This document shows positions 3,872-20,903 of a DNA stretch of 64,000 nucleotides, in pieces (the first letter of the stretch is position 1; every line of letters starts with the position of its first letter). Below the pieces are notes generated by a model. The model was not told the origin of the DNA. It made no database searches and saw only the letters and a program-made list of their open reading frames with translations. This stretch comes from Posidoniimonas polymericola (GTDB taxonomy: Bacteria; Planctomycetota; Planctomycetia; Pirellulales; Lacipirellulaceae), in the NCBI RefSeq assembly GCF_007859935.1, contig NZ_SJPO01000001.1, forward strand, positions 806,001 to 870,000, written 5' to 3'. The position numbers and the translations under genes were made by a program.

Positions 3872-5104
3872 TCAGGCGGCCTGCCCGGGCTCGCCGTGGC
3901 GGTCGGCGGCGGGCGGCGCCGCCCAGGCGCTCAGCGCCCAGAATGCCGGTGGCAGCAGGGCCGCCATCCCCAGGCAGCACCACCACGGCAGCCGCGGGTC
4001 GATCTGGTACAGGAGTCCACCGACCAGCGGGGCCCCCACGAACGCGGTGGCGTGCGACACCGAGTTCAGCCCCATGTAGGCCCCTCGGTTGCGGCCACTC
4101 GACCGCCGGGCGACGTGCGTCATGCCGAACGGGGCGTTGAGCATCTCGCCGGCGGTCCACACCACCGCCAACGCCACCGCCCAGGCGAAACCGCCGCCGA
4201 ACGGCGAGCAGCCAAACCCCAGGCAGAACAGCAGCGTGCCGACCGCCACGACCCGCAGCGGCGGCAGCCGGCGGAGCTTCTCGGTCAGGATCATCTCGAA
4301 CACGACAATCAGCGCCGTGTTGACGACAAAGATCGTGCCGATCTGGTCCTCGCCCAGGCCGTACTGCTCGGCCAGGTACATCGGCAGCGTGCTGATGATC
4401 TGGAAGAACACCAGCCCAGCGGCCGACTGCAGCAGCAGGAACATCAGGAACGGACGGTCGGCGAATGGGCCGCCTAGCGAAGTCCGGCGGGGGCTCTCGG
4501 GGGTCGCCGCGGCGGGGCCGGACAGGTCGAAGGCCGTGAGAGTCACCACCGCCGACAACAGCACAAACACGCCGTTAATCGAGAACAGCAGCGGCCACAG
4601 TCCGGCGTGCGCCAGGTAGCCGCCCACCGCCGGCCCGATCGACATCCCCAGGTTCATCGCCAGCCGGTTCAACGCGAACGCCCGCGACAGCAGCTCAGGC
4701 GGGGCGTGGTCGGAGGTCGCGGTGGCGATCGCCGGGCGGATGGTCTCTGCGGCGATGCTCAGGTACAGCAGCACCGCGCCGAACTGCGTGGTCTGGGTGC
4801 AGGCCGCCAGCGCGGCGTAGGCCGGCGCGCTCAGCAGCAGCGAGCCCAGCACCACCCGCATCGCACCAACCCGCTCGGTGAGCCACCCCCCAAGGTACGC
4901 GCCCGCGACTCCTCCCAGGCCGTAGATCGCCAGGAACTGGATAGCCAACGCAGGGTCGACGCCGTGCACCTTCTTGAGGTAGATCGCCAGGAACGGCAGC
5001 ACCATCGTGCCGCAGCGGTTAACAAAGATCAGCGCAGCCAGCAGCCAGACCGCGCGGGGCAGGCCGCTGTACGCTTCGCGGTAGAGGGCAATCAGGCGGG
5101 GCAT
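3872..5104 (-). CDS. Major facilitator superfamily transporter
   Basis: A 410-residue membrane protein with about twelve hydrophobic segments, the size and pattern of an MFS permease. The loop after the second helix reads GGWLTERVGAMRV, a form of the MFS motif A (GxLaDrxGrr). The start is placed at the ATG of MPRLIALYREAY (5104); an upstream in-frame start at 5245 would add 47 residues of Pro/Arg-rich, non-membrane sequence that looks like leader DNA. The substrate cannot be read; the general form is that of a drug or sugar efflux-type permease. It is a single gene flanked by intergenic gaps of about 200 bp. Confidence 0.85.
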   Translation of the reverse strand: MPRLIALYREAYSGLPRAVWLLAALIFVNRCGTMVLPFLAIYLKKVHGVDPALAIQFLAIYGLGGVAGAYLGGWLTERVGAMRVVLGSLLLSAPAYAALAACTQTTQFGAVLLYLSIAAETIRPAIATATSDHAPPELLSRAFALNRLAMNLGMSIGPAVGGYLAHAGLWPLLFSINGVFVLLSAVVTLTAFDLSGPAAATPESPRRTSLGGPFADRPFLMFLLLQSAAGLVFFQIISTLPMYLAEQYGLGEDQIGTIFVVNTALIVVFEMILTEKLRRLPPLRVVAVGTLLFCLGFGCSPFGGGFAWAVALAVVWTAGEMLNAPFGMTHVARRSSGRNRGAYMGLNSVSHATAFVGAPLVGGLLYQIDPRLPWWCCLGMAALLPPAFWALSAWAAPPAADRHGEPGQAA

Positions 5105-5309
5105 GGGCGTCGTCCGTGGACCGGCCGGTGGGGGTCGATAGTGTACCCAGGACGAATCTGCCCCGGCGCCCCATCGGTCCGGACTGCACCCCCTACAGAC
5201 GGTCGCCGGCGTAGAAGGTTCGCCGGAAGCCGATCCTGACTCCACAGCGAACCCGCCGGGAGCGGCTCGCGTTCCAGGCGATGTGCGGGCCGCGCCAAAT
5301 CGAGGTCGC

Positions 5310-6077
<768 letters not shown>

Positions 6078-6197
6078 TTTGGCGTCGGCGGGCGAAGGCA
6101 GCTGGGGTGGAGTCGCTCATCTTACTCGCCCGGCCTCGGTCGCAGGTAGTGACCGCCGGGTCACTTTCCAGCGTTGCGTAAACAGCACGCCCTGCGA

Positions 6198-6593
6198 CTA
6201 CTCGCCCAATTGGCACTCGCCGGCGGAGCACCGCCCGGTGAGCCTCAGCCGGTAGCGGGCGAAGAAGCGGTACGAAAGGTCGAGCAGCTGCCGCACGCCC
6301 GGCCAACGGGTCACCGCGACCGCTGTCCCCCAGCCAGTAGCGGCGTACAGCCGCCGGAACACCTCGACGCCACGGATTAGTTTGCCGTCGGGCAGGCGGC
6401 CGTGGATCTCGGCCATCAGCGTAGCCATGTCGACGCCCAGCGGCGCGGGGTCGAAGCCGGCGGCCGCGATGTCGGTGAACTCGATCTTCTCCTGCTTGTC
6501 CCAGCGACGCAGCATGTCGATCTCCCGCCGGCAGAGCGGGCAGTCGCCGTCGTAGAAGACTTCGACCTCAGTCGTGGCGGGTTGGTGCTGCAT
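6198..6593 (-). CDS. DCC family (DUF393) thiol-disulfide oxidoreductase-like protein
   Basis: A 131-residue protein starting with [20 protein letters not shown], the defining D-x-D-x-C-P-x-C signature (Cys18 and Cys21) of the DCC/DUF393 family, which is thioredoxin-like. The remaining sequence ([17 protein letters not shown], then [22 protein letters not shown]) also follows the family layout. Members are thought to act in redox or lipid-associated electron transfer, but the substrate is unknown. It is transcribed away from the cytochrome P450 gene across a 257-bp divergent region; shared regulation is possible but not shown. Confidence 0.88.
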
Positions 6594-6850
6594 GGTAGGT
6601 TGAGGGCGGCCGTATTGGAGTCCGTATAAACTGTAGCCCGCCCGCCAGCGGTGGACAGGCTCCTCGTCGATTGCGGCAACCAGTAGGTCGAGAATCGGGC
6701 CGAAGTGATCGCGTCGTTCGGCGACCCGATCTACGATAGGGCGAGTTGCATGCGATGCCCACGGCGGTGGATCCGCCTTGCCCCTCTCCCCATCGACTGA
6801 AGCGGCGCCACGGCCGAGCGCGCAGGGTCATTACCCGTGATTGGCGCGCT

Positions 6851-8341
6851 ATGGCGCTCAATTCTGCGGCTCACAATTCCACATCGTCCAGCGGTTCGTG
6901 CCGTTCGTCGCACCCGCCCGGCCCCGCCAACTACAACCGCTGGCTCGGTCTTACCTGGCGGCACGTGGCTTCGTTGTGGCGACAGCCGCTGCAGTACCCG
7001 CTGGAGGTCGCGCACCAGCACGGCGGCCTGAGCAGCTTCCTGCTGCTTTCTAAGCGGGTCTACATCGTTAACCACCCGCGGGTGCTGCACGAGTTCATGG
7101 TCCACCGTCGCGCAGACTTCGTGAAGGCCCCTTGGCAGACCCGCGTCATGCGTCAGGTGCTGGGGGATGGCCTGCTGCTCAGCGAGGGCGAGCTCTGGCT
7201 CCGCCAACGCCGACTCATCCAGCAGGCGTTCCGCGGCGGGGCGATGGACCGCTACGCCCAGATCACGGTCGAAGAGACCGAACGCAGCATCGACGCCTGG
7301 CGTAGCACGCCGCGGATCGATCTGGTCGACGAGATGACCGCCCTGACGATGTCGCTGTCGATCCGCTCGACTGTTGGCTGTCGGCCTGAAGGGCGCGACT
7401 GCCCGTCCCCCGCGGAGCTGGCCGAGGCCGTGATCGAGGGCGCCGACATCCTCAAGCTCGACATGGAGAACCCCCTCTCTCCGCCGGACTGGGCCCCGCT
7501 GCCGAGCCGCCGCCGCAAGCGGGAGGTGATCGGCGTGATCAACCGCTACGTCGCCCAGGCGATCGCCGACCGGCGGGCCGCCCCCACCGCGCACGACGAC
7601 CTGCTCGCCCTGCTGCTCAGGTCGGTCGACGTCGAAGGGGACGGACTCGGCATGAGCGAGCGGCTCGCCCGCGACGAGGTCGTCACGATGCTGCTGGCCG
7701 GCAGTCACGCCTCGAGCGCGACGCTCGGCTGGTTTTGGAAGCTCGTGCTCGGGAAGCCCGACGTGCACCGCAGGCTTGTTGAAGAAGTTGACCAGGTGCT
7801 CGGCGGCCGGCGGGCGACGATCGACGACCTGCCGCGGCTGGCCTACGTCCGCCAGACGCTGCAGGAGACGCTCCGCTTGTTCCCGTCGGCTTGGGTGCTG
7901 TTCTGCCGCCAGGCGGTCCGGTCGACCACGCTCGACGGCTACCGCCTGCGCCGCGGTGCATGGGTGTTCGCTTACCCGTTCGCCACGCACCGCGACCCGC
8001 GGTTCTTTGCCGACCCGCTGCGGTTTGATCCCGAGCGGTTCTCGCCCGAGCGGACGGCCGAGATGGTCGATGGGGCGTACTTTCCGTTCGGGCACGGCCC
8101 GCGGAACTGCATCGGCCAGCACATGGCGATGCTGCAGCTGACGCTCATCGTGGCGACCGTGCTGCAGCGGCTGCGGCTTGAGCCGACCTCGGGCTGCGAC
8201 GACCTGGCCATCCGCCGCGAGCTGTCGATCAGGCCCGCCACGCCCTGCGTGGTCGCGCCGCGGGTGCGGGCGGCGGCCGGCGAGGTGGTTGTGGGCTGGG
8301 CCGCGGCTACAGCCAGTTCCGGCGGCGGAAGTAAACCGTGA
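6851..8341 (+). CDS. Cytochrome P450
   Basis: A 496-residue soluble cytochrome P450. Visible landmarks are the K-helix ETLRLFP (ExxR), the PERF-like FDPERFSPER, and the haem loop FPFGHGPRNCIGQHMA with the Cys ligand. The I-helix reads LLAGSHASSATLGWF, so the usual acid-Thr pair of AGxET is absent. The start is set at the ATG of MALNSAAHN; longer in-frame options (TTG 6746, ATG 6755) add Arg/Pro-rich sequence unlike P450 N-termini. There is no membrane anchor. The last 35 bases overlap the convergent corA gene. The substrate is unknown; general resemblance to the CYP110/CYP102-like bacterial fatty-acid and terpene enzymes is only an impression. Confidence 0.92.
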   Translation: MALNSAAHNSTSSSGSCRSSHPPGPANYNRWLGLTWRHVASLWRQPLQYPLEVAHQHGGLSSFLLLSKRVYIVNHPRVLHEFMVHRRADFVKAPWQTRVMRQVLGDGLLLSEGELWLRQRRLIQQAFRGGAMDRYAQITVEETERSIDAWRSTPRIDLVDEMTALTMSLSIRSTVGCRPEGRDCPSPAELAEAVIEGADILKLDMENPLSPPDWAPLPSRRRKREVIGVINRYVAQAIADRRAAPTAHDDLLALLLRSVDVEGDGLGMSERLARDEVVTMLLAGSHASSATLGWFWKLVLGKPDVHRRLVEEVDQVLGGRRATIDDLPRLAYVRQTLQETLRLFPSAWVLFCRQAVRSTTLDGYRLRRGAWVFAYPFATHRDPRFFADPLRFDPERFSPERTAEMVDGAYFPFGHGPRNCIGQHMAMLQLTLIVATVLQRLRLEPTSGCDDLAIRRELSIRPATPCVVAPRVRAAAGEVVVGWAAATASSGGGSKP

Positions 8342-9284
8342 GCGCGGCCATCACGCCCGCCATCGAGCCGATCACGACCCAGAATGTGCCGGGCCGTGAC
8401 GGGTCGGGCCACAGCGGGACGTTCATGCCGTAGATGCCCGCGATGACCGACACCGGCAGCATCAGCCCGGCAAACACGGTCAGCTTGTTCATCGCGTCGG
8501 CGCTGCGGAGCGAAATCGTGGTCCGGTAGTTCTCGCGGACCTCGCCCACCATGCCGCGGAGGATCTCGACAATCTCCAGCGACGAGGTCATGTGGTCTCG
8601 CACGTGCTCGAGCCGCCGCCGGCCCTCGTCCGAGAGGTGGTCGAGTTCGTTGTCGCACAACTCGATCAGCACCTCGCGCTGGGCCACCTGCACCTGCCAC
8701 AGGTCGAGCACCCGACGGCGGACGTCGGCCAGGTCCTCGAGCAGGTCGTCTTCACAGTCGATGTCGACCGAGCGGTCCTCGAGCACCTCAAGCTCTTGCT
8801 CGTAACGCTTGGCGAGCATCATGCTGTTGTCGACCATCTTGTCGAGGTGCAGGAACAGCAGGTGCCCCACGCCCTTCTTGCTGACCTGGGGGGCGATCCT
8901 CGTGACGCGCCCGACGAGGTACTCGATCGACCCGATCGACTGGGCGTGTACGGTCGCCACCGCCTGGGCGGTGCAGATCAGGTTGATCATGCGGGGACGC
9001 GGCTGGTCGCTCTCTTCGGCGCCGAGCATGCCGTACAGCAGCAGGCCGGCGTAGTCTTCGAAGTAGTCGATGTTGGCCCGGCCGTCGTCCTCGCTCAGCT
9101 CCTCGATCGTGTGGCTCTCGAGGCTCATCAGGTCAGAGAGCGACTGGACCTGCTCCGGGGTTGGAGCCCAGAGATCGAACCACCAGACCGACGGGTTGGC
9201 GCCGTCGTCGGGCAGCCGCGCGGGGAGCGCGTCCCGCGTCTCGACGGTCCCGTCGGGGAGGAAGCGGAAGCAGCGGATGCTCAT
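8307..9284 (-). CDS. corA: CorA-like magnesium/divalent cation transporter
   Basis: A 325-residue protein with a long acidic and helical cytoplasmic N-terminal domain and two C-terminal membrane helices. The first helix ends in the selectivity signature YGMNVPLWPD (GMN), the hallmark of CorA channels, and the protein ends with the short basic tail VYFRRRNWL after the second helix. Length and order fit the family (about 316 residues in enterics). CorA pentamers import Mg2+, with some members moving Co2+ or Zn2+. The 3' end overlaps the convergent P450 gene by 35 bp. It is not obviously in an operon. Confidence 0.93.
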   Translation of the reverse strand: MSIRCFRFLPDGTVETRDALPARLPDDGANPSVWWFDLWAPTPEQVQSLSDLMSLESHTIEELSEDDGRANIDYFEDYAGLLLYGMLGAEESDQPRPRMINLICTAQAVATVHAQSIGSIEYLVGRVTRIAPQVSKKGVGHLLFLHLDKMVDNSMMLAKRYEQELEVLEDRSVDIDCEDDLLEDLADVRRRVLDLWQVQVAQREVLIELCDNELDHLSDEGRRRLEHVRDHMTSSLEIVEILRGMVGEVRENYRTTISLRSADAMNKLTVFAGLMLPVSVIAGIYGMNVPLWPDPSRPGTFWVVIGSMAGVMAALTVYFRRRNWL

Positions 9285-9355
9285 CTTCGGGGCTCGGGCA
9301 GGTCGGGGGAGGCGAATCTCCGGGGCATCCTACCCGATTTCCTGCGGGGCTCGAC

Positions 9356-11371
9356 CTACCACCTCCACTGAATCGAGCCGTAGACGCCACGCCGCCTTTC
9401 CGTTGGCAGGGTCGTCCCTTGTTGCCCAATAAACTCGCGGTGCGTCGAGTCTAGCAGGTTCTGCGCTACCACCGCGCACTCAAGGACGTCGTTCGGCCGC
9501 CAGCCAACCCGCAGATCGAGCGCCACGTTGCTGTCGACGTCCAACGCCGGCAGGCTGTCGACGTAGCGTGTAATGACGTCCAGCTCCCAGTCCTCGGCCA
9601 GGTCCCACGACGACCAGAGCAACGCCTGATTGCGGGGCGAGCCCTGCTCAGACCTCGTGCCGGACAGGGAGGCGAGCGGCTCGGTGTCGACGTCCAGCCG
9701 CAGGAACGAGTAGTTGCCAGAGATCTTCCAGTTCGGCGCCATTTGGAGCTTGCCGGTTAGCTCCAGCCCGTAGCCATGGCCGTTGCCGGTGCTGGCGTAG
9801 GTTGCGGCGGTAGGGAAGGTGGTGAAAGTGCTGTTGATGAGGTTGTCGTAGACGTTGTAGAACGCGGCGGCATCCCACGAGAGGTACTCGGTTGGCTGGG
9901 CCCGGTAGCCAAGCTCGTAGGCCATCAGGTCTTCTGCCTTAAGGTCGCGGTTGCCTGTGAACACGAGCGAGGGCAGGCTCACCGTGACCGCGTCCTCCGA
10001 GCGGGTCGGCGTCCTCACCGCCCGCGACACGGCGCCCCACAACGCCCGCTGCTGGTCGATCGCCAGCAGCAGTCGGACGCTCGGCTGCACCTGAACCCCG
10101 CTGAAGTAATTGTCCTCCAGCTTGACGCCGAGCGTCAGGAACAGGCGGTCCTCGGCCAGCTCAGTTTGATTCTGCGCGAAAGCGCTGGGCAGGCCGTACG
10201 AAAGCGTTGGCGGTTGGTAGCTGGTGGTGCTACCAGGAGGAGACAGCAGCTTGTCGGAGATCTCGCGATAGCCAACCCCCCAGACCATCGACTGCCAATC
10301 GCCCCACCGGTAGTTGTGCTGGAAGTCGAAGTCGAGCGTGTCGATCTGCTGATGGGCGTAGAGGTCCAGGCGATTCGTGCGGTCCCAGTAGAACTGGACC
10401 GACCAGCCACTGTCGTCACTGGTTTGGCGGCTCCACCTCGCGAGCAGGTTGCCGCCCGAGGTGGTGGAGTCGCGGTTCGGCACAACGGTGGGCCCAAACG
10501 CGATGGCGTCGGAGTAGACCTGCTCGTAGTAGTCTCCCTGGAAGGTGAAGGTGTCGGAGCGGGTGGGGGTCCAGTCCATGCGGAACCCGCCGCGTCCCTG
10601 GCTCCACTCGTCATTCACAAAAACGTCCGGCCGGTAGCCGTAGTCGCGTTCGAACCATTTGCCCCATGCACGCCAGTGCAGATCGCCGTCGGCGGTAACG
10701 CCGCCAAGCCTTGCGCCGGCGAACCCTTCCTCGTACGTTCCGCCGCCGGCGATCGCGTACGCGCCCGTGGTGTCGGCGGCCTGCTTCGTGATGACGTTGA
10801 TCACCCCGTTCACGGCGTTCGACCCCCACACCGTGGCGCCCGGCCCGCGGACGACTTCGATCCGCTCGACGTCCTCCAGCAGCAGGTCTTGCACGTCCCA
10901 GTAGACGCCACCGAACAAGGGAGAGTAGACGCTGCGGCCGTCGATCTGCACGAGCAGTTTGTTGGTGTACTGGTCATTGAAGCCGCGGATCGATATCGCC
11001 CACTTGTTGGAGTCGATCTTTGCGACGTTTACCCCCGGCACCAGTCGCAGAGCCTCAGGGATGCTGCGGACGCCGCTGCGGCGGATCATGTCGTTGGTAA
11101 TGACGTACACCGCCGCCGGCGACATGCCGACCGTGCTCTCCTGACGCGTCACGGAAGTGACGGTCTCGTCGAACGACTCGACCGCCACGCTCACGCTGGT
11201 GTTGGAGAGCTGCTCGAGGTCGAGGTTCAGCAGGTCGTCGGACGAGTCCGCCGACGGGGCGGCGCCGCCGATGTCGGACGGGTCGGGTGGAGACTGCCCG
11301 GACGCGGACGAGGCCATCGCCACGATCAGCGACAGAACCAGCGCGCGCAGGCTTGGGGTTGTTGAAAGCAT
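9356..11371 (-). CDS. TonB-dependent outer-membrane receptor
   Basis: A 671-residue receptor with a signal peptide (MLSTTPSLRALVLSLIVAMA then SSASGQ) and a plug domain at about residues 75-195, with AAVYVITNDMIRRSG, ALRLVPGVNVAKID, SIRGFND and IEVVRGPGATVWGSNAVNG. A beta-barrel of alternating aromatic segments follows, ending in an aromatic C-terminal strand (YGSIQWRW). This is the CirA/BtuB/FepA architecture for TonB-energised uptake of siderophores, cobalamin or other large ligands. The start was placed at the ATG before the signal peptide; an upstream start at 11488 would add 39 non-signal residues. No transporter genes lie beside it and no Fur or cobalamin element was recognised, so the ligand is unknown. 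Confidence 0.92.
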   Translation of the reverse strand: MLSTTPSLRALVLSLIVAMASSASGQSPPDPSDIGGAAPSADSSDDLLNLDLEQLSNTSVSVAVESFDETVTSVTRQESTVGMSPAAVYVITNDMIRRSGVRSIPEALRLVPGVNVAKIDSNKWAISIRGFNDQYTNKLLVQIDGRSVYSPLFGGVYWDVQDLLLEDVERIEVVRGPGATVWGSNAVNGVINVITKQAADTTGAYAIAGGGTYEEGFAGARLGGVTADGDLHWRAWGKWFERDYGYRPDVFVNDEWSQGRGGFRMDWTPTRSDTFTFQGDYYEQVYSDAIAFGPTVVPNRDSTTSGGNLLARWSRQTSDDSGWSVQFYWDRTNRLDLYAHQQIDTLDFDFQHNYRWGDWQSMVWGVGYREISDKLLSPPGSTTSYQPPTLSYGLPSAFAQNQTELAEDRLFLTLGVKLEDNYFSGVQVQPSVRLLLAIDQQRALWGAVSRAVRTPTRSEDAVTVSLPSLVFTGNRDLKAEDLMAYELGYRAQPTEYLSWDAAAFYNVYDNLINSTFTTFPTAATYASTGNGHGYGLELTGKLQMAPNWKISGNYSFLRLDVDTEPLASLSGTRSEQGSPRNQALLWSSWDLAEDWELDVITRYVDSLPALDVDSNVALDLRVGWRPNDVLECAVVAQNLLDSTHREFIGQQGTTLPTERRRGVYGSIQWRW

Positions 11372-11663
11372 ACTGATTCTTCCATGATGACGCCGACCGA
11401 ACTTTCCTAGCTCGGACCAGTGTCGGCATCGGCTCCGCGCATCCCCACCCATCAGGGCGAGGCCGACGGGGTGTGCCTGCTGCAACAACCGCTAAACTGG
11501 TGGTGGGTAGCCACACGCCTTGCCGGCGTAAAAGCGCCCCGCGCAGTGGCAAACCACACCGTTGCGACTAGAGTCAGCCGTCAGATTACCCGAGCGGCCG
11601 GACACGTGTTTTGCAGCTCGGTGGTCCAAATGATCGATCTCCCTTCCCCGATAATCGCCAGCG
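11372..11663. other. Divergent intergenic region between TonB receptor and membrane protein
   Basis: About 290 bp with no supported gene. It must hold the promoters for the receptor (minus) and the membrane protein (plus). The minus-strand leader contains GCCACTG and several GC-rich self-complementary blocks. It was inspected for a cobalamin riboswitch, but the box sequences and their order did not match. Confidence 0.5.
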
Positions 11664-12884
11664 ATGCCCACGCCCTCCACAGACGAACACGCTTCGCCCA
11701 CGCGGCCTGTCGTTGAGGTTGGCTGGCTCGTCACCGAGAACCTCGAGGCGCCCGACCGTGAGGCGATCAAGGCCGCCCACCAGCGCGTGACCGAGATGCT
11801 TGCGGAGCACCTGCCGGAGTTCGAGTGGCGGACGCCGCTGGCCGTGCAGGAAGCCCCTTCGACGGCTGGCTCGCACGAGGCGGTCGAGCACCTCGGCTGG
11901 GCCCGTGAGCAGCGGGACCTACGCGGCTGGGACTACGTGTTCGCGTTCGTCGCGCCGGACCTCATCGCCCGGCAACGCGACCACGCCTGGGAGTGCGTGT
12001 CGCGGTCGCTCGACTCGGCGGTGATCTCCACCGCGCGGATCGACCCCCGCGCCCAGGACCCGGACGTAAGCCAGGAGTACCGCGTCGCAACGCTTGCCGA
12101 TCGGCTGGTGACGCTCGTGCTGCGCGGGCTCGCCCACCTGTGTGGCGTGCCGGAGGACGACTCGTCGGGTCGCGTGATGAGCGGGTTTCAGGCGGTGGGC
12201 GAACTTGAGCAAGCCGCTCCGCTGGCTGAAGAAGAGTGGGCGCGGTTGCGTCACACGCTCCGCGAGACCGCCGACCCACGGCTCGAGGAGACCGCCGACC
12301 ACAGCGCCGGGGCCGCGGCGTTCTACCTGCGCGCCGGCTGGCGGAACCGCCGAGAGGTGCTCGAGGCCGTTCGTCAGGCGCGGCCCTGGCAGATGCCGCT
12401 GCGTCTGGCGCGGCTGACCATCGCCGCGGTCAGCACGATGCTGGTGCTCATCATGACCGCCGAGGCCTGGGAGCTCGGCGTGCGGCAGCCGCTGTCGGCG
12501 GTCGCCGCACTGACCGGGGTGAGCCTGGTGGTGACCGTTGTCTACGTGCTGGTGCGGCAGGGTCTGCTGCTCTCGCAGGGATCGGCCGGCCTCAGCGAGC
12601 AGGTGGTGACTACCAATCTCACGACGATCGCCATCATCGCGACCGGCATCGCGACCACGTACGTCTGCTTGTACCTGCTGACGCTCCTGGTGACCGCGTC
12701 GCTGTTCGACGCCGAATTGGTCGCCTCCTGGGCGCCTACGCTGCACGAACGCGCCGACTGGGAGTGCTACGCCACGTTCGCTGGATTCGTGTCGTCGATC
12801 GGGATTGTGATCGGCGCGCTCGGCGTGTCGTTTGAGGGGCAGCACTACTTCCGCCACATCACGTATGTAGACGAAGAAGTGTAG
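11664..12884 (+). CDS. Membrane protein with archaemetzincin-like N-terminal domain lacking HExxH
   Basis: A 406-residue protein. Residues 1-190 are soluble. The segment WDYVFAFVAPDL...AVISTARIDP followed by LVTLVLRGLAHLCGV and later VMSGFQAV resembles the strand order of archaemetzincins (DYVLGVTDVDL, AVVSLARL, HELGHxxGL, then VM). The zinc motif HExxH is replaced by RGLAH, so peptidase activity is doubtful. The C-terminal half has about four membrane helices (about 252-275, 280-300, 318-342, 365-390). The resemblance is by eye and needs a profile search. It stands alone on the plus strand and ends 12 bp before the convergent HMA-GNAT-MauE gene. It could be a membrane-tethered pseudo-peptidase sensor; that is speculation. 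Confidence 0.7.
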   Translation: MPTPSTDEHASPTRPVVEVGWLVTENLEAPDREAIKAAHQRVTEMLAEHLPEFEWRTPLAVQEAPSTAGSHEAVEHLGWAREQRDLRGWDYVFAFVAPDLIARQRDHAWECVSRSLDSAVISTARIDPRAQDPDVSQEYRVATLADRLVTLVLRGLAHLCGVPEDDSSGRVMSGFQAVGELEQAAPLAEEEWARLRHTLRETADPRLEETADHSAGAAAFYLRAGWRNRREVLEAVRQARPWQMPLRLARLTIAAVSTMLVLIMTAEAWELGVRQPLSAVAALTGVSLVVTVVYVLVRQGLLLSQGSAGLSEQVVTTNLTTIAIIATGIATTYVCLYLLTLLVTASLFDAELVASWAPTLHERADWECYATFAGFVSSIGIVIGALGVSFEGQHYFRHITYVDEEV

Positions 12885-12896
12885 CGGGGGGTGGTC

Positions 12897-14075
12897 TTAG
12901 AGCAGCCGCATCAGCAGCATCGCCGCGGCCATCACCGCCATCGTCGCATCCTCGACGATCGTCAGCGTGCTCATCGGCAGGTCAAACGCGGTGCCGAGGC
13001 AACCGCACTGAATGTCCCGCCCACGGGCCACGGCGTTGACCACGCCCGCGGTGCTCACGAGCATCACCACCAGCGTCACGATGTTCACCGCAACCGGCGC
13101 CATGCCCAGCAGGTAGGCCACGCCTAACCCGAGCTCGATAAACGGGTAGACGTAGGCGTACGGCAGCCAGCGGGCCGCGACCAGGTCGTACGAGGTGTAC
13201 GCCTCGGCGAAGCCGCGCAGGTCGAGCATCTTAAACAGCGAGAAGGTCACGAAGAACAATCCCATGAACACACTCATTAGGAACCCGGCGGTCCAGGCTC
13301 CGGCCGCCACGCCCGCGATGACAGTGCCGCCGACCAGGTACGACACAATCAGCAGCAGTGGTTTGTAGGTCGCCAGCCAGCCCTTCTCGCCTCCGTTATG
13401 ATGCTCGTGGGCGTGTCCGCTGTGTTTGTGCTCGTGGCCGCCCTCTCGATGTTCCGCGTCATCGTCGTGCGATTGCCCACTGTGCGGATCGTGTGCGGGT
13501 TCCGTCCGGCTCTTGGTGAGCGGCTCGAACCGCGGGTTCTCTTCGATGTAACTGCGGACGTAGCTGCAGGTCGGCTTCACCCGCAGGCCGTTCTCTTGGG
13601 CGTAGTTCAGCGCCGACTCGGCCAGCCGGGCGCCGATCCCCTCGCCGCGGTCGGCGGGCGGCACAAAGGTGTGCTTAAGGTCAATGACGCCGTCGGCGGG
13701 CCGCTCGTAGTTGAGCACGCTGGCCCGGCCGTCGGTTTTGTAGACGAAGCGCGACTGGTCGGGGTCGTGCTCGACACCCTCGGCGAGCATGCCATTTGAG
13801 TGCTGATCGGACGCGACGTCTGCCGCTTCGCCGGTGGTCGGCTCGGACGGTTCAGGCTCTTGGGCGTCGGCCGGGGCGAGGTGGTAGTCGCCGGCCTCGG
13901 CTGCTTGGTTATTGAGCTCGGCGAGGGAGAGCATTGTGTCGCCGTCGACCGTGACGCGATTCTTCGCAAGCGACACCTCCGCCTGGCTGACGTGTGGGCT
14001 GGCGAGCAGCGACTCGCGCAGTTTCGCTTCGCAGGAACGGCAGTGCATGCCGGTGACGTCGTAAACAGCTCGCAT
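12897..14075 (-). CDS. HMA domain - GNAT domain - MauE-like membrane domain fusion
   Basis: A 392-residue protein of three recognisable parts. Residues 1-68 are a heavy-metal-associated domain with the metal loop GMHCRSC (Cys12, Cys15). Residues 107-187 form a small YjdJ-type GNAT domain (PF14542-like), with the CoA loop RGEGIGAR and the family Cys in VKPTCSYVRSYIEENP. A His/Asp-rich linker (195-227, many HxH) follows, then four or five membrane helices (232-392) ending in QCGCLGTAFDLP, which resembles MauE/DoxX-like proteins of methylamine utilisation and periplasmic thiol redox. The combination suggests copper or another soft metal handled together with membrane redox. It is 143 bp downstream of the sulfatase gene on the same strand. 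Confidence 0.82.
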   Translation of the reverse strand: MRAVYDVTGMHCRSCEAKLRESLLASPHVSQAEVSLAKNRVTVDGDTMLSLAELNNQAAEAGDYHLAPADAQEPEPSEPTTGEAADVASDQHSNGMLAEGVEHDPDQSRFVYKTDGRASVLNYERPADGVIDLKHTFVPPADRGEGIGARLAESALNYAQENGLRVKPTCSYVRSYIEENPRFEPLTKSRTEPAHDPHSGQSHDDDAEHREGGHEHKHSGHAHEHHNGGEKGWLATYKPLLLIVSYLVGGTVIAGVAAGAWTAGFLMSVFMGLFFVTFSLFKMLDLRGFAEAYTSYDLVAARWLPYAYVYPFIELGLGVAYLLGMAPVAVNIVTLVVMLVSTAGVVNAVARGRDIQCGCLGTAFDLPMSTLTIVEDATMAVMAAAMLLMRLL

Positions 14076-14218
14076 GGCAGACCTCCACAGTTCAGCCGGC
14101 TCGCCCCGGGGAAGGCCCGCCCGCTTACCGCGTTAGGGAGATGCCCGGGGCGGCAGACGGCTGCTGACGCGGAGGGCGGACCTGCAGCCTAATGGGTGCA
14201 AGTCGGGCGCCAAGCCGG

Positions 14219-15862
14219 CTAACTCGCCTGCTGCGTTTCGCGGGCCTGCTTTTCCTGCGCCGCTTTTTCCTGCAGGAAGCGGTACATGTTGAAGCGTTCG
14301 GGGAACGCGACGCCGGTTTTCCGCGCCCAGGCCTCCCACTTTGCTACCATCTCGTCCCGCTTGCCGGGCTCGGCTGAGGCCAGATCGTTCAGTTCGGTGC
14401 GATCGGCGTCAATGTTGTACAGCTCCCACGGCTTCTGGTACTCACAGACCAGCTTCCACTTGCCCCACCGCACGGCTGCATTGCCCTCGTGCTCCCAGAA
14501 GATCGGTTCGGTGTGGATCGGCGCATCGTTGCCCCGCAGCAGCGGCGCCAGCGACTCGCCCTCACACGGCGGCACGTCCTGCGGGTAGTCGGCGGCCGCC
14601 AGGTCGACGCAGGTCGCCATGAAGTCGGGCAGGTAGCCGACCTGCCGCACGAAGCCGCCGCGTTCGCCCTCGGCGATGCCGGCCGGCCAGTTGGCGATCA
14701 GCGGGGTGCAGGCGCCCCCCTCGTGGACGAAGTGCTTGTACTTGCGGAAGGGGGTGTTGCAGGCGTTGGCCCAGGCGAGGCCGATCTGCACGCCGTTGGT
14801 GGTGCGGAGCGGCGGGTTCATCACCATCTTGTGGCCGCCGTTGCCGAGCCGGCCCCCTTCCTGGCAGGCGCCGTTGTCGCTGAGGAACAGGATCAGTGTG
14901 TTGTCGCGCTTGCCGATCTGGTCGAGGTGCTCCATAAGTTTGCCGACGTTCTGGTCGACCGAGTCGAGGCAGCCGGCGTAGGCCGCCATCACCGCGTCGA
15001 GCCGGTTGCGTTGCTGCGGCTTGAGCGAGTCCCACTCCGGCCCGAGGTGCTCGGCCGGCGTGACGTCGCCGGCGAACAGGCCAAGCTCACGCTGCTTGGC
15101 CTGCCGCGCCGCCATCATCGGGCCCCAGCCCCCCTCGTACTTGCCGCGGTACTTCTGGTAGTCCGACTCCTTCGCGTTGAGCGGCCAGTGCGGCGCGTTG
15201 TACGCCAGGTACAGGAAGAACGGGCGGTCGTCTGCCTCGGCGGCCTCAGAGATGAACTCCATCGCCTTGTCGGTGAAGGCGTCGGTTGCGTACCATTCGT
15301 CGTCGGTGGGGACCAGCTCGTTGCCCGAGGTGATGCCGCGGCCGCCCCCCGGCTTGAAGTAGTTAATCGCCCCGCTCAGGCAGCCGTAGTACTTGTCGAA
15401 GCCCCGCTGCAGGGGCCACGCCTCCTGCTGAGCCGGATCGACGCCGACGTGCCACTTGCCGGTCATCAGCGTGTGGTAGCCGGCGCCGCGGAGCACCTCG
15501 GCCAGCGTCGCGCAGTTATCGTTCAGGTACCCCTGGTACGGGCCCTCGAACCCAAGCGGCTGCCCGGGGGGCGCGGTCATGTGGCCGATCCCGACCTGGT
15601 GTGGGTGCAGCCCGGTCAGCAGGCTGGCGCGCGTCGGGCAGCAGCGGCCCGCGTTGTGGAACTGCGTGAACCGCAACCCGCCCTGGGCCAGGCTGTCGAT
15701 GTTGGGGGTCTCGATCTCCGAGCCGTAGCAGCCGAGGTCCGAGAAGCCCATGTCGTCGACCAGGATGACGACGATATTGGGCCGGTCGTCAGCGTCGGCC
15801 GACGGGCAGACGGTCAGGCAGGCAAGCAGGCAGAACAGCGACGCGGCTAGGAGTCTTGGCAT
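14219..15862 (-). CDS. Arylsulfatase-type sulfatase, exported
   Basis: A 547-residue sulfatase with a signal peptide (MPRLLAASLFCLLACLTVC). The metal-binding start RPNIVVILVDDMGFSDLGCYG and the active-site motif C-C-P-T-R-A-S-L-L-T-G (Cys74 as the residue converted to formylglycine) are intact. GKWHVG and the later LFLSDNGACQEGG are further alkaline phosphatase-superfamily landmarks. The family hydrolyses sulfate esters on polysaccharides or glycans, often sulfated algal sugars in planctomycetes. The chosen ATG at 15862 directly precedes the signal peptide; an in-frame start at 16000 adds 46 basic residues. It lies downstream of the DUF1501 and PSCyt1/DUF1553 genes and is probably linked to them functionally. 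Confidence 0.93.
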   Translation of the reverse strand: MPRLLAASLFCLLACLTVCPSADADDRPNIVVILVDDMGFSDLGCYGSEIETPNIDSLAQGGLRFTQFHNAGRCCPTRASLLTGLHPHQVGIGHMTAPPGQPLGFEGPYQGYLNDNCATLAEVLRGAGYHTLMTGKWHVGVDPAQQEAWPLQRGFDKYYGCLSGAINYFKPGGGRGITSGNELVPTDDEWYATDAFTDKAMEFISEAAEADDRPFFLYLAYNAPHWPLNAKESDYQKYRGKYEGGWGPMMAARQAKQRELGLFAGDVTPAEHLGPEWDSLKPQQRNRLDAVMAAYAGCLDSVDQNVGKLMEHLDQIGKRDNTLILFLSDNGACQEGGRLGNGGHKMVMNPPLRTTNGVQIGLAWANACNTPFRKYKHFVHEGGACTPLIANWPAGIAEGERGGFVRQVGYLPDFMATCVDLAAADYPQDVPPCEGESLAPLLRGNDAPIHTEPIFWEHEGNAAVRWGKWKLVCEYQKPWELYNIDADRTELNDLASAEPGKRDEMVAKWEAWARKTGVAFPERFNMYRFLQEKAAQEKQARETQQAS

Positions 15863-16080
15863 AGGAGCGAGCAAACGAGCAACCGAGTGGGAATGACCGC
15901 AGGCCCGGCGGGAACGCCGGCGCTTAGTAGACGCCATTTGAGTTTGAAACGTGACGCCAAATCTCTGGGTATTGGCCAAATCGTGGGCAATTTGGCTCAT
16001 CCGAGTAAGGCGCCTCTCGCCCGCTTAGAATCGCGGGCCTCAGCGCGACGCGTTCTGCTGGCTGGCTTGGCTAGTCGCGG

Positions 16081-17511
16081 CTACGCGATCAACTCCGGGA
16101 TAACGTGCGCGGGGACCACGCCGGTCAGCTTCTGGTCGAGGCCCTGGTAGCGGTGGGTGAACCGCTCGTGGTCGAACCCCATCAGCTGCAGGATCGTGGC
16201 GTGGAAGTCGCGGATGTGGATCGGGTCGCGGGTGATGTTGTAGGAGAAGTCGTCGGTTTCGCCGTGGATGTGGCCGCCGTTGGCTCCGCCGCCGGCCATC
16301 CACATCGTGAAGCAGCGGGGGTGGTGGTCGCGGCCGTAGTTGTCGGGCGAGAGGCTCCCCTGGGAGTAGATGGTGCGTCCGAATTCGCCGCCCCAGATGA
16401 CGAGGGTGTCGTCGAGCATGCCGCGTTGCTTAAGGTCCTCGAGCAGCGCGTAGCAAGGCTGGTCGACGTCCCGGCACTGCGACGGCATGCGGCCGCCGAG
16501 GTTGCCGTGGTGGTCCCAGTTGTTGTGGTAGACCTGCACGAACCGCACGCCCCGTTCCGACAACCGGCGGGCCATCAGGGCCGTGTACGCAAAGGTGCCG
16601 GGCTGCTTGGCCGCCTCGCCGTAGAGATCGAACGTGTGCTTTGGCTCGCTGGCCAAGTCGGTCAGCTCCGGCACGCTCGCCTGCATGCGGAAGGCCATCT
16701 CGTACTGGTGGATGCGGGTGGCGGTCTGCGGATCGCCCAGCCGCTGGTAGTTCATCTGGTTGAGGGCGTTGATGCCGTCGATCGACCGGCGCCGCAGGTG
16801 GTCCGGCACGCCCGGCGGGTTGTTGATGTACAGGATCGGGTCGCCCTTGCTGCGGAACGAGACCCCCGCGTGCTCGCCCGACAGGTAGCCAGAGGCCCAC
16901 AAGCGGGACGAGATGGCCTGCTCTTGCTCGCGGTTGGTGGGGACCGCGATCAGCACCGCGAAGGTCGGCAGGTTCTGGTTGATCGGCCCCAGGCCGTACG
17001 ACGCCCACGCCCCCAGGCAGGGGCGGCCCGGCGCCTGGTTGCCGGTCTGCAACGCGGCGATGGCGGGCTCGTGGTTGATGGCCTCGGTGTGCAGCGAACG
17101 CATCCAGCAGATGTCGTCGGCCTTCTTGGAGAGCCAGGGGAGCAGGTCCTGGTTCATCCACATGCCGCACTCGCCCTGCTTGGCGAAGCGGTACTTAGAG
17201 GGGGCAATCGGGAAGCGGGACTGGCCGCTGGTCATCGTGGTGAGTCGTTGGCCCTGCCGCACCGACTCGGGCAGGTCCTTGTCGTACCACCGACGCACCT
17301 GCGGCTTGTAGTCGAACAGGTCCATCTGCGAGGGCCCGCCTACCATGTGCAGGTAGATCACCCGCTTCGCGCGGGGGGCGAAGTGGGGGCCGGGCGCGGC
17401 CGCCGAGGACGACGCCTGAGCGGACTCGCCCAGCAGCGAGGCGAGCGCGGCGCCGCCGAGCAGGTTGCGGCCGCTGGTGAAGAACTGACGGCGGGAGGTC
17501 AGGTCGAGCAT
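16081..17511 (-). CDS. DUF1501 family protein with twin-arginine signal
   Basis: A 476-residue protein of the DUF1501 family (alkaline phosphatase/sulfatase-like fold by family description). The N-terminus LTSRRQFFTSGRNLLGGAAL is a twin-arginine export signal. The family stretches VIYLHMVGGPSQMDLFDYKP, VIWGGEFGRT and GRDHHPRCFTMWMAGGG are clear. In planctomycetes such genes almost always sit next to a PSCyt1/DUF1549/DUF1553 gene, as here (45 bp from the upstream 1068-residue gene). The biochemical role of the pair is not established; a link to breakdown of sulfated or otherwise complex polysaccharides has been suggested by co-occurrence with sulfatases, as seen here. Confidence 0.95.
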   Translation of the reverse strand: MLDLTSRRQFFTSGRNLLGGAALASLLGESAQASSSAAAPGPHFAPRAKRVIYLHMVGGPSQMDLFDYKPQVRRWYDKDLPESVRQGQRLTTMTSGQSRFPIAPSKYRFAKQGECGMWMNQDLLPWLSKKADDICWMRSLHTEAINHEPAIAALQTGNQAPGRPCLGAWASYGLGPINQNLPTFAVLIAVPTNREQEQAISSRLWASGYLSGEHAGVSFRSKGDPILYINNPPGVPDHLRRRSIDGINALNQMNYQRLGDPQTATRIHQYEMAFRMQASVPELTDLASEPKHTFDLYGEAAKQPGTFAYTALMARRLSERGVRFVQVYHNNWDHHGNLGGRMPSQCRDVDQPCYALLEDLKQRGMLDDTLVIWGGEFGRTIYSQGSLSPDNYGRDHHPRCFTMWMAGGGANGGHIHGETDDFSYNITRDPIHIRDFHATILQLMGFDHERFTHRYQGLDQKLTGVVPAHVIPELIA

Positions 17512-17556
17512 GGCGTGGGTCCGTAGGGGCGCCCCGGGGGGCGGTGAAGCGAGGAG

Positions 17557-20500
17557 CTACTTGCAGAGGGCCTCGTCGAGGTTCATCACCTGGCTGCAGA
17601 GCATGGTCCAGCAGGCAAGATCGACCTTCGAGAGACGCTCGTCGAGCGGTGCATCGCCGACGCCGAGCAGCGCGGCGGCGTCTTCGGGCGACGACTGGTA
17701 GTGATCGAGGTAGGCTTGTTTGTCGGCCAGCAGTACTTGCAGCTCTGCCTGGGTGAAGTCGCGGCACAGCACTCGGCTGGCTACGTAGCGGAGCGCCTGC
17801 TGGTCGTCGGCCGCGTGGTCGCGAAGGGTGATCTCGGCGAGCCGCCGCGCGGCCTCGACGAACTGCGGGTCGTTCAGCGTCACCAGGGCCTGGAGCGGCG
17901 TGTTGGTGCGTTCGCGGCGGACGGTGCAAACCTCGCGGCTTGGGGCGTTGAACGCCTCGAGGTTGGGTGGGTGGGCCATCCGCTTCCAGAACTGGTACAC
18001 CGTGCGGCGGTAGTTGCCTTCGCCGGTGTCCTGCACGTAGTCGCGGGTGTCGCCCTCGGGCAGGCCGACCACGTTCCAGAGGTCGCTCGGCTGGTAGGGC
18101 CGCGTGCCGGGGCCGTACATCTTGCGGGAGAGCAGCCCACTCGAGGCGAGCGCCGTGTCGCGGAGCACCTCGGCGTCCATGCGGAATCGCGGGCCGCGGG
18201 CGAGCAAGGCGTTGGCGGGGTCGCGTTCGACCTCGTCGGCCGTGGCGGCCGCTGATTGGCGGTACGCGGCGCTCATCAGCATCATCTTGAAGAGGTTTTT
18301 TACGTCCCACCCCGAATCCTGGAACTCAACCGCCAGCCAATCGAGCAGCCGCGGGTGGCTAGGCAGCATGCCGGTGACGCCGAAGTCCTCCGACGTGACG
18401 ACTAGCCCCTGTCCGAAAACCTCCTGCCAGAAACGGTTCACCGTGACACGGGCGGTGAGTGGGTTGGCTCGGTCCACGGTCCACTGAGCCAGGCCGAGCC
18501 TGTTGTGCGGCGCGCCCTCGGGGAGCGAAGGAAATGCAGACGGCACGTCGGCGGTTACTTCCTCGCCGGGCTGGTCGTAGGCGCCACGCATCAGGATCTT
18601 GGTGGCCGGCTGGCGGTCCTCCCGCTCTCGCTGGATGTGGGTGAGTGGGCTGCGGGCCTCGATCGCCTGACGCTCGGAGCTCAGCGCGGCGACCTGCGCG
18701 TCGAGCCGCTGGTAAGCAGGGTCAACCGAAGTGAGGAAGTGCTCGAGCAAGTCACCGCGTTGCTCGGGGGTGCGGTCGTTGGCGGCCGTATCCAACGCGT
18801 CACGGAGTTGCGGTCGGCTGGCCAGCAGCAGCGCCTCGGCGTCCGAGAGCCTGCGGCGGAAGATTCGCACATCCTGGACCGACCCGCCTTCTAGCACCGC
18901 GCCCTCGCTTCGTTGCCCGATGCGCAGCGGCGTTTCCGTTCGGATCGAGGCTCCGGGGTTGAGCGAGCCTTGGTCGGTGTTGAGTGGGGCGGCCCGCCCG
19001 TTCACGTAGATGCGGATGCCGGCCGCCTTGCCGGAGCCGTCGTAGGTGGCGAGCACGTGCATCCACTGATCTGCCTGAACGACCGACTCCTTCGTGCTAA
19101 CCTTCAACGCGTTGCCGGGCCAGTTGTCGATGATGTGCACCGCCAGCCTGCCGCCGTCCTGCCACAGATCCCAGCCGCGGTAGTTGTTGCCGACGTCCAT
19201 CCGGGCAATGATTCCGGCCCCCGAGCCGGGGCTCGCGCTGCGCACCCAGCCGCCGTAGCTGAACGCCTCGTTACCCTCGAAGTCGCCGGCGTCTTCCAAC
19301 GCGAGGGTCGCTTCGTTGCTGAGGACTACTGCGGGGCCCAGCTTGCCGTCGGGCGTCCAGCGGAGCGGGCCGGTCGCGGCGGGCGCTGCCTGCGACCCGA
19401 CTGTATCTTCTACCTTGTCGCCGGCGCCCTCGGTGAGTGGCAGGTGCGTCTCGAGAGCGTCGGCGCCAACGCTCGCCAGGCTGTCCGGCGTGGCGCCGGC
19501 GAGCCAGGCGTCGAAGTCGGCGCCGGCCGCCACCCGGCGGGCCCCGCGGAGCTGCTCGGCGGCGGCGATCTCGTCGGGCAGGGCGTCCCAGCGGTCTCGG
19601 TCGGCGGCCGCGGGAGTCCTGATGGTCGGTCCGGCGCCGTCGGCGACGTTGCCGTCCTTGGCGGGCGCCTCGGTGTTGTTGAAGAACGCGGCCAGCGCGT
19701 AGTAGTCGCGCATTGTGATCGGGTCGAACTTGTGGTCGTGGCACTGCGCGCAGTTGGTGGTCATGCCGAGGAACACCCAGCCGTAGGTCTGCACCCGGTC
19801 GGCGGAGTAGTTGGCGAGGTTCTCCTCGTCGATCGTGCCCCCCTCGTTGGTGGTGATGTTGCACCGCTGCAGCCCGGTCGCGACCAGCTGGTCGAGCGTG
19901 GGGTCGGGGAGCAGGTCGCCGGCGAGCTGCTCGACGGCGAACCGGTCGAACGGCTGGTTCTTGTTGAACGAGCGGATTACCCAGTCGCGGTACGGCCACA
20001 TCTCGCGGTAGTTGTCGAAGTGCAGCCCGTGGGTGTCGCCGTAGCGGGCGGCGTCGAGCCAGTACCGCGCGCGGTGCTCGCCCCACGCGTTCGACGCCAT
20101 CAGGTGGTCGATCCACTCGCTGAGCGCAAGGTCCTTGCGATTCTCGTAGTCCGCGGCGAACTTGTCGGCGGTCTCCGGCTCGGGCGGCAGGCCGGTGATG
20201 TCGAGGTGCAGCCGCCTGAACAGTTGGTGGGGTTCGCACTCGGCGGCCGGCCCGAGGCCTTCGGACTCGAGCCTCGCCAGGATAAAGCGGTCGATTGGGT
20301 TCCGCACCCAAGCCTCGTTCTGCACGACCGGTGGGGACTGCTGCCGCGGCGGGATCAGCGACCAGTGCGGCTGGTACTCGGCGCCGGCTGCGACCCACCG
20401 GCGGAGCGTCTGCTTCTGCTGGTCGGTGAGTGTCTTCTTGATCTCCGGCGGCGGCATCACCAAGCCCGGATCGTCGGTCAGGATCCGTTCGATCATGCTG

Positions 20501-20763
20501 CTGACGGCAGGGTCGCCGGGCTCGATCGCCCCGTACTCGACCGCCGCCTCGCGCTGGTCCAGCCGCAGGCCCGCCTTGCGCGCCGCGCTGTCGGCGCCGT
20601 GGCAGGCGAAGCAGTTCTCCGCCAGGATTGGCCGGATGTCGCGGTTGTACTGGGGCTCCCCGGCATCGTTCGCGGCTGCCACGGTAGGCAGCGTGATCGA
20701 CACTGCCGCAAGCAAGCACCAGGCTTGGATGCAGAACGGATTACGGGTGACAACGGGTTCCAT
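17557..20763 (-). CDS. PSCyt1 - DUF1549 - LamG-like - DUF1553 exported protein
   Basis: A 1068-residue planctomycete-specific protein. After a signal peptide (to about residue 31) comes the PSCyt1 domain with the single haem-binding site ENCFACHGADSA (Cys51, Cys54, His55). DUF1549 (PSCyt2) follows at about 145-360, with ARYWLDAARYGDTHGLHFDN and NCAQCHDHKFDPI (a further CxxCH). A concanavalin/LamG-like beta domain lies at about 440-640 (DFEGNEAFSYGGWVRS; MHVLATYDGSGKAAGIRIYVN), and DUF1553 (PSD1) occupies about 720-1000 (RVTVNRFWQEVFGQGLV; NTPLQALVTLNDPQFVEAAR). The first gene of the DUF1501/sulfatase cluster, probably periplasmic. The LamG insert may bind carbohydrate; the role of the haem is unknown. 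Confidence 0.95.
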   Translation of the reverse strand: MEPVVTRNPFCIQAWCLLAAVSITLPTVAAANDAGEPQYNRDIRPILAENCFACHGADSAARKAGLRLDQREAAVEYGAIEPGDPAVSSMIERILTDDPGLVMPPPEIKKTLTDQQKQTLRRWVAAGAEYQPHWSLIPPRQQSPPVVQNEAWVRNPIDRFILARLESEGLGPAAECEPHQLFRRLHLDITGLPPEPETADKFAADYENRKDLALSEWIDHLMASNAWGEHRARYWLDAARYGDTHGLHFDNYREMWPYRDWVIRSFNKNQPFDRFAVEQLAGDLLPDPTLDQLVATGLQRCNITTNEGGTIDEENLANYSADRVQTYGWVFLGMTTNCAQCHDHKFDPITMRDYYALAAFFNNTEAPAKDGNVADGAGPTIRTPAAADRDRWDALPDEIAAAEQLRGARRVAAGADFDAWLAGATPDSLASVGADALETHLPLTEGAGDKVEDTVGSQAAPAATGPLRWTPDGKLGPAVVLSNEATLALEDAGDFEGNEAFSYGGWVRSASPGSGAGIIARMDVGNNYRGWDLWQDGGRLAVHIIDNWPGNALKVSTKESVVQADQWMHVLATYDGSGKAAGIRIYVNGRAAPLNTDQGSLNPGASIRTETPLRIGQRSEGAVLEGGSVQDVRIFRRRLSDAEALLLASRPQLRDALDTAANDRTPEQRGDLLEHFLTSVDPAYQRLDAQVAALSSERQAIEARSPLTHIQREREDRQPATKILMRGAYDQPGEEVTADVPSAFPSLPEGAPHNRLGLAQWTVDRANPLTARVTVNRFWQEVFGQGLVVTSEDFGVTGMLPSHPRLLDWLAVEFQDSGWDVKNLFKMMLMSAAYRQSAAATADEVERDPANALLARGPRFRMDAEVLRDTALASSGLLSRKMYGPGTRPYQPSDLWNVVGLPEGDTRDYVQDTGEGNYRRTVYQFWKRMAHPPNLEAFNAPSREVCTVRRERTNTPLQALVTLNDPQFVEAARRLAEITLRDHAADDQQALRYVASRVLCRDFTQAELQVLLADKQAYLDHYQSSPEDAAALLGVGDAPLDERLSKVDLACWTMLCSQVMNLDEALCK

Positions 20764-20903
20764 AGCGTGTCCTTGAGGGACGAAACGCGACCAGCGACCG
20801 AGAAGACGAAGCGATAACGTTTTGGCGCCGAGCTAGCGGATTGCAAGCGAGGCGTTTCCTCTATGATCGCACGCCCCATGGGGCCGTGTCCAGTTCGAAC
20901 GCC

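Follow-up and report, generated by a model that had tools for sequence, protein, structure and literature searches.

In the mercuric transport fusion MerTP, an HMA domain and a small membrane domain lie in one chain, and MauE proper, the protein of methylamine utilisation, sits in the mau gene cluster. The small GNAT acetyltransferases of the YjdJ type (Acetyltransf_CG) have been solved as chains of 89-103 residues that consist of the domain alone, as in At1g77540, E. coli YjdJ and S. aureus 1r57; to our knowledge, the substrates of this family are largely unknown. We know of no membrane protein so far in which a metal-carrier domain and an acetyltransferase are joined, and the literature searched, in which few subscription papers were reached, held no such protein and no paper on an HMA-MauE or three-domain protein. 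In the accessible part of PMC6199490, YjdJ appears in strain lists only. By its described domains, SmGrx3 of Sinorhizobium is of a glutaredoxin-MauE type: the portion of PMC6315971 available to us reports low deglutathionylation activity for it and no phenotype of the Smgrx3 mutant in the states reported, and gives its function as not elucidated.

Results

Three domains in one membrane protein

In the window (the whole 64,000-nucleotide stretch of Posidoniimonas polymericola DNA analysed here), an open frame at 12897-14075 on the reverse strand starts with ATG and encodes 392 residues. Its features are:

12897..14075, (-): fusion gene, 392 aa, in the order HMA, GNAT, His-rich linker, MauE; identical order in G404, a second genome of the genus
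13926..14066, (-): HMA domain, residues 4-50; Pfam HMA E 8.9e-12; fold match to Ccc2a and CopZ
14031..14042, (-): CxxC of the HMA domain, residues 12-15; both Cys in 30/30 aligned rows with an HMA domain
13524..13751, (-): Acetyltransf_CG domain (YjdJ/At1g77540-type GNAT), residues 109-184; Pfam 3.6e-23; Foldseek matches 1xmt, 2il4, 5i0c
13566..13568, (-): Cys170 of the GNAT; aligns with the Cys of At1g77540 and of 9 other GNATs
13380..13505, (-): His-rich linker by composition, residues 191-232, 11 His in 42; pLDDT below 50 at 190-230
12912..13283, (-): MauE membrane domain, residues 265-388; Pfam E 3.5e-16; hydropathy
12999..13007, (-): CxC of MauE, residues 357-359; both Cys in 31/31 rows

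A preliminary description of this DNA had proposed an HMA domain, a YjdJ-type GNAT and a MauE-like domain in one chain with a His-rich linker, and each of these parts was recovered. All three domains score above their Pfam cut-offs: HMA (PF00403) reaches 45.7 bits against 24.8, with C12 and C15 in place; Acetyltransf_CG (PF14542) reaches 81.9 against 30, in agreement with the fold search; and MauE (PF07291) reaches 60.1 against 27, with helices both in the structure model and by hydropathy. The hydropathy profile has an extra hydrophobic helix at about residues 237-258, N-terminal of the MauE match. Chance domain matches are ruled out by the E-values and the fold matches.

The fusion protein was modelled alone, from its single sequence, with AlphaFold, and the low scores of the model (mean pLDDT 62.4, pTM 0.30) make the small domains alone usable. 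These comprise an HMA-like order of strands and helices at residues 1-68 (block pLDDT 63-76) and a GNAT-like part at about 101-190 (pLDDT 77-90). Both linkers are poorly modelled, with pLDDT below 50 at residues 71-95 as well as in the His-rich stretch, and helices follow from residue 230 onward. In a Foldseek search of the PDB, At1g77540 entries took ranks 1-4 and E. coli YjdJ (5i0c) rank 5, followed by S. aureus 1r57, the yeast Ccc2a copper domain, CopZ and other HMA proteins; the probability of the GNAT fold was 1.00 for 1xmt, 2il4 and 5i0c. These ranks show that the label 'YjdJ-type' is correct. The domain thus shares its fold with all three solved proteins, and with At1g77540 also the Cys and its surrounding residues, but in the fusion it forms an insert within a membrane protein of metal type. 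A promoter scan at the locus found 0 sigma-70-like sites, and the 5 terminator-like sites found there all lie on the strand opposite to the gene.

An unbroken counterpart in a second genome of the genus

The G404 genome carries the whole chain at 72% identity and with no stop, and its protein has the identical three Pfam domains in the identical order. The flanking genes are also common to both genomes in order: upstream the sulfatase, DUF1501 and planctomycete-cytochrome genes, and downstream a convergent gene for a 406-aa protein. The planctomycete-type cytochrome/PSD1 and DUF1501 genes fit a placement of the source genome in Planctomycetota. Since the same chain recurs between shared flanks on both sides, a sequencing frameshift that joined separate genes, which the preliminary description had named among the findings that would refute its reading, is excluded. 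Farther downstream the loci diverge, and the TonB-receptor, CorA and P450 genes of the window are without counterpart in the 18 kb of G404.

Between the two proteins, identity is 71% in HMA, 69% in GNAT and 86% in MauE; it is 58% in the first linker (14 gap columns) and 32% in the His-rich linker (11 gap columns). The dN/dS ratios (NG86) are about 0.17 for HMA, 0.44 for GNAT and 0.14 for MauE, values that rest on one sequence pair with high dS, and dN itself is nearly equal in HMA (0.22) and GNAT (0.223). All three domains look to be under constraint, the GNAT possibly the least.

Other genes of the window deserve mention. The convergent 406-aa protein (11664-12884, forward strand) ends 12 bases from the fusion gene and is 71% identical in G404 at the same place; it has hydrophobic stretches in its second half, judged by eye, and no Pfam match at E 1. 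About 6 kb from the fusion gene lies a DCC1-like thiol-disulfide oxidoreductase (6198-6593, reverse strand; 75% identical in G404). A cytochrome P450 frame (6746-8341, forward strand) and a convergent frame for a CorA-type transporter (8307-9284, reverse strand) share 35 bases at the 3' end of the latter.

The three-domain chain is rare

We searched overlapping genome samples for matches to the full three-domain chain. There were 2 in the 43 genomes of the family sample, 2 in the 396 of the order sample and 2 in the 397 of the class sample; the phylum sample (294 genomes) held 1, the source genome itself. Among 398 genomes of Caulobacter's phylum, none of the matches listed, best first, covered the three domains. 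A search for related loci in genome contigs returned two distant loci only and missed the relatives found in the genome samples, so that it says little on distribution. Among plasmids and phages, no record contained a single place that covers 80% of the fusion protein, viral contigs gave no relative of it, and a mobile origin of the gene is accordingly without support from these searches. The three-part protein is therefore real, rare and limited to one genus within the samples searched.

HMA-MauE is a common backbone

Parts of the chain are much more widespread. At 70 other places in the class sample the match (E <= 3.7e-33) aligns with the MauE part but not with the GNAT; the N terminus was read for part of these. 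We assembled a set of 30 proteins, namely the fused pair and 28 relatives, all found via the window protein; the locus L085 of genome G067, which is absent from the called genes, lies outside this set. The Cys pair of the HMA domain is kept in all 30, and that of the MauE CxC also in a 31st row, a MauE protein of Bernardetia. Further invariant residues of the 31-row alignment are K282, Y296, D297, E314 and E375. Eight relatives added later all have the N-terminal CxxC and a CACLG motif, and an N-terminal CxxC is present in 36/36 relatives read. When six GNAT-less relatives were scanned with Pfam HMA, three passed the cut-off of 24.8 bits (L056, L079 and L084), two fell below it (L058 at 22.6, L059 at 19.2) and L062 gave no match; the HMA domain is thus divergent in many of the relatives. 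Among strong matches, the MauE part is 43-64% identical to that of the window protein.

The HMA-MauE proteins of the phylum (such as L056, L079 and L084) share with the fusion the N-terminal CxxC domain, a MauE with CxCLG and the order of the two, but they have no GNAT. Their linker is short and His-poor: all 28 relatives have 12-44 aa with 0-2 His at this point, whereas the linkers of the two fused proteins reach 168 aa (14 His) and 147 aa (12 His). A tree built on the MauE part, using the last 165 residues of 31 rows, groups the two fused proteins with G392 (support 95/98), and this nearest relative has neither the GNAT nor the His-rich stretch. Both were therefore probably added in the ancestor of the genus, which is the simplest history, although their loss in G392 is possible. 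The statement in the preliminary description that no protein with this set is described agrees with the literature searched as far as the whole chain is concerned; HMA-like plus MauE alone, by comparison, is a common architecture in the class. What is new is the GNAT together with the His-rich insert, which the samples show in a single genus, and the backbone is a common yet undescribed membrane protein family.

MauE is paired with other carrier domains

On a plasmid of Bernardetia, double HMA and MauE are encoded by two separate, adjoining genes, and near the pair lie genes for a multicopper oxidase and for a copper-binding protein of the four-helix kind. In Pseudomonadota and Cyanobacteria a glutaredoxin domain precedes MauE, with Pfam Glutaredoxin above its cut-off in 6/7 proteins scanned, and all 12 glutaredoxin-MauE proteins examined keep two Cys, one residue apart, near their end. 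Proteins of the SmGrx3 type (Sinorhizobium, cyanobacteria, some proteobacteria) thus resemble the fusion in having a thiol domain ahead of a MauE with the same CxC, but theirs is a glutaredoxin in place of HMA, and there is no GNAT. In genome G067, a YHS domain followed by MauE (L011, 1066-1968, forward strand) presents a third metal-type partner of MauE; the 7.8 kb of this YHS-MauE locus (L085) hold one CusB-like match.

We also inspected 11 plasmid loci, hand-picked among the 30 matches listed out of 273 records, with Bernardetia included and with no control set. Copper-named genes occur in 6 of them (Bernardetia, Leptolyngbya, Picosynechococcus, Methylobacterium, S. yanoikuyae, Paracoccus), other heavy-metal genes in 3 (S. 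baderi, Gloeocapsa, Phaeobacter) and a MerR gene only in 2 (S. paucimobilis, S. insulae). Of the 10 glutaredoxin-MauE loci among them, genes named for copper or heavy metals lie within 3-5 kb in 8, and a MerR gene only in the other 2. The glutaredoxin-MauE genes of Alphaproteobacteria and Cyanobacteria at L143-L152 lie repeatedly near MerR/CueR, copper or heavy-metal genes.

The presence of glutaredoxin as carrier raises the possibility of a thiol redox relay, in which MauE would move reducing or oxidising equivalents across the membrane as a DsbD-like partner, glutaredoxin or HMA would be the cytosolic thiol donor, and copper genes would be neighbours because copper stress oxidises thiols. 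The redox-associated annotation of MauE/DoxX fits such a relay, and the low activity reported for SmGrx3 in the available part of PMC6315971 would fit as well. However, the partner is HMA, a metal-carrier fold, in the window's phylum and in Bernardetia, and YHS in G067, and this MauE has one conserved CxC with no second Cys pair for a relay. We consider this explanation rather doubtful.

Copper-type genes surround many relatives

We examined 29 neighbourhoods of 5.7-18 kb in 25 genomes, comprising 28 HMA-MauE genes and the fused gene of G404 (L074 and L085 were not counted), by tblastn at 1e-8 with nine reference proteins, of which CusA, CusB, multicopper oxidase, CopA-type ATPase, CsoR and MerR formed the core. 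At least one core gene was present in 18/29 neighbourhoods as compared with 3/20 control windows taken from 18 of the same genomes, a comparison biased in favour of the copper link, since the reference set had been picked for recurrence near these genes. The metal role that had been suggested for the protein is thereby supported for its HMA-MauE part; its coupling to acyl transfer, also raised in the preliminary description, would be possible. The three positive controls consisted of three ATPase matches, one of them with an RND gene. Per 29 neighbourhoods there were 15 with a CusA-like RND, 14 with CusB-like, 11 with MerR, 11 with outer-membrane factor, 9 with multicopper oxidase, 8 with Cu-type ATPase and 6 with CsoR-type genes. 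Two of the 18 positives (L057 and L083) were so by MerR alone, and 11/29 neighbourhoods had no core gene. Four close relatives added later contributed one MerR match and nothing else, giving 19/33 overall. By NCBIfam, the reference RND belongs to the CusA/CzcA family (703.5 bits, cut-off 701.45) and the reference ATPase is copper-translocating (606.8 bits, cut-off 397); for the reference oxidase, CsoR-type protein and MerR, even the best-scoring model stays under its cut-off.

The neighbours of the same fusion in G404 were surveyed, as had been suggested at the outset, and none of the nine copper-cluster proteins was found within its 18 kb, nor within the 18 kb of the window locus or of G392. 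The window locus (0/9 reference proteins) is thus not a Cus/Cop copper-resistance cluster, and copper is argued from more distant relatives. On another contig of the source genome, a Cu-type ATPase gene and an RND-type gene are some 2 kb apart, and elsewhere in that genome two RND genes score above the CusA/CzcA cut-off.

In each of the 11 loci with a MerR gene, that gene immediately adjoins HMA-MauE, and two of these regulators, when scanned, scored best to the mercury MerR model (139.6 and 131.6 bits, cut-off 150.85) and lower to the CueR model (103.5 and 96.1 bits, cut-off 147.4). Taken with weak matches of the HMA domain to MerTP and MerA models, and with merA/merB near the glutaredoxin-MauE gene of the Methylobacterium locus, this could indicate a MerT/MerP-like protein that moves Hg(II). 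The MerR scores nevertheless stay under the cut-off, and the 11 MerR rows have no Cys at what we take to be the position of Cys82 in mercury MerR. Moreover, an annotated cueR adjoins one glutaredoxin-MauE gene and lies one gene away from another, and genes for Cus-type RND proteins, multicopper oxidases and Cu-type ATPases are the more frequent neighbours. The fusion itself resembles MerTP (NF033556) in joining HMA to a small membrane domain, but it has another membrane domain and reaches 18.3 bits against a cut-off of 180, in the HMA part only. We therefore regard mercury handling as very unlikely. Similarly, no mau-type domain was found among 11 neighbours scanned (3872-22913), which sets the protein apart from MauE proper.

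The inserted GNAT domain

The RGxG loop is present in 9/10 aligned GNAT rows and the Cys in 10/10. Both features are kept in the two fusion species, and the GNAT may therefore be an active enzyme held at a membrane site: a tethered, apparently intact cytosolic acetyltransferase. Acetyltransf_CG is above its cut-off in 5/43 genomes of the family, the fused pair included (85.7 and 82.7 bits). One of these genomes, G315, has a separate Acetyltransf_CG gene of 123 aa (86.6 bits); its product shares 44% identity with the GNAT of the fusion, and no match to the nine copper-cluster proteins lies near it. Weak matches of 30.3-32.1 bits occur at four places in G404, G511 and G483. A GNAT gene adjoining the backbone in relatives was considered as a source of the fusion, and none was seen.

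The GNAT might also be a passenger, that is, a small stable fold that came to lie in a tolerant linker and serves as a spacer with no acetyltransferase role; this proposal concerns the GNAT alone and is compatible with any reading of the rest. Its restriction to one genus within the samples, the highest dN/dS of the three domains and the freely varying linker length of the relatives all speak for a passenger. Retention of the RGxG loop and Cys in both species, at 69% domain identity and a dN/dS below 1, speaks against it, and we hold it to be tenable but unlikely.

Predicted topology

Hydropathy gives five helices, with boundaries set by hand, at about residues 237-258, 263-284, 304-324, 328-348 and 367-388. 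Averaged over the 31 rows, a sequence carries 2.39 K+R in loop 2 and 2.68 in loop 4, but 0.03 in loops 1 and 3. By the positive-inside counts, the N terminus, the GNAT, the His-rich linker and the CxC are predicted to lie in the cytosol, which is the site of acetyl-CoA.

Discussion

We propose that the fusion is a membrane-anchored protein handling Cu(I) or thiols, a member of an undescribed carrier-MauE family to which a tethered GNAT has been added. We give this reading a probability of roughly 55%; the missing phenotype reported for the Smgrx3 mutant speaks against it. In such a protein, a cytosolic carrier domain with reactive Cys would serve the membrane MauE; the carrier would be HMA in the window's phylum, glutaredoxin in Pseudomonadota and Cyanobacteria, and once YHS. 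The only conserved thiols of MauE are those of the CxC, which would sit at the cytosolic face. HMA would take up Cu(I) in the cytosol and pass it on by metal or metal-thiol exchange to the membrane CxC, and this handover might aid Cus-type export, and with it the oxidation carried out in the periplasm by multicopper oxidase, wherever a species keeps these together. The YjdJ-type GNAT and the His-rich stretch would have been inserted into the linker in this genus only; the His-rich stretch could add a metal buffer, and the tethered GNAT could possibly act on its own protein or on a partner.

An extension of this proposal is a metal-gated tethered acetyltransferase, where Cu(I) bound to HMA and to the His-rich linker would move or open the GNAT, which would then acetylate a copper-handling partner, or the HMA of its own chain, at lysines or N termini. 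We consider this improbable; if true, copper status would be written as acetylation at the membrane.

The Cu(I)/thiol-handling reading reaches beyond one genus. The alignments and gene neighbourhoods suggest that MauE domains that have a CxC and an exchangeable carrier domain (HMA, glutaredoxin or YHS) make up a family linked to copper, present in no fewer than four phyla, namely the window's, Bacteroidota, Pseudomonadota and Cyanobacteriota. This wider family is of more use than the fusion itself, since through it the role of SmGrx3-like proteins becomes testable: the orphan SmGrx3 would have a direct test in copper stress. The presence of a GNAT inside a metal-type membrane protein, in turn, narrows where the substrate of a YjdJ-type acetyltransferase may be sought.
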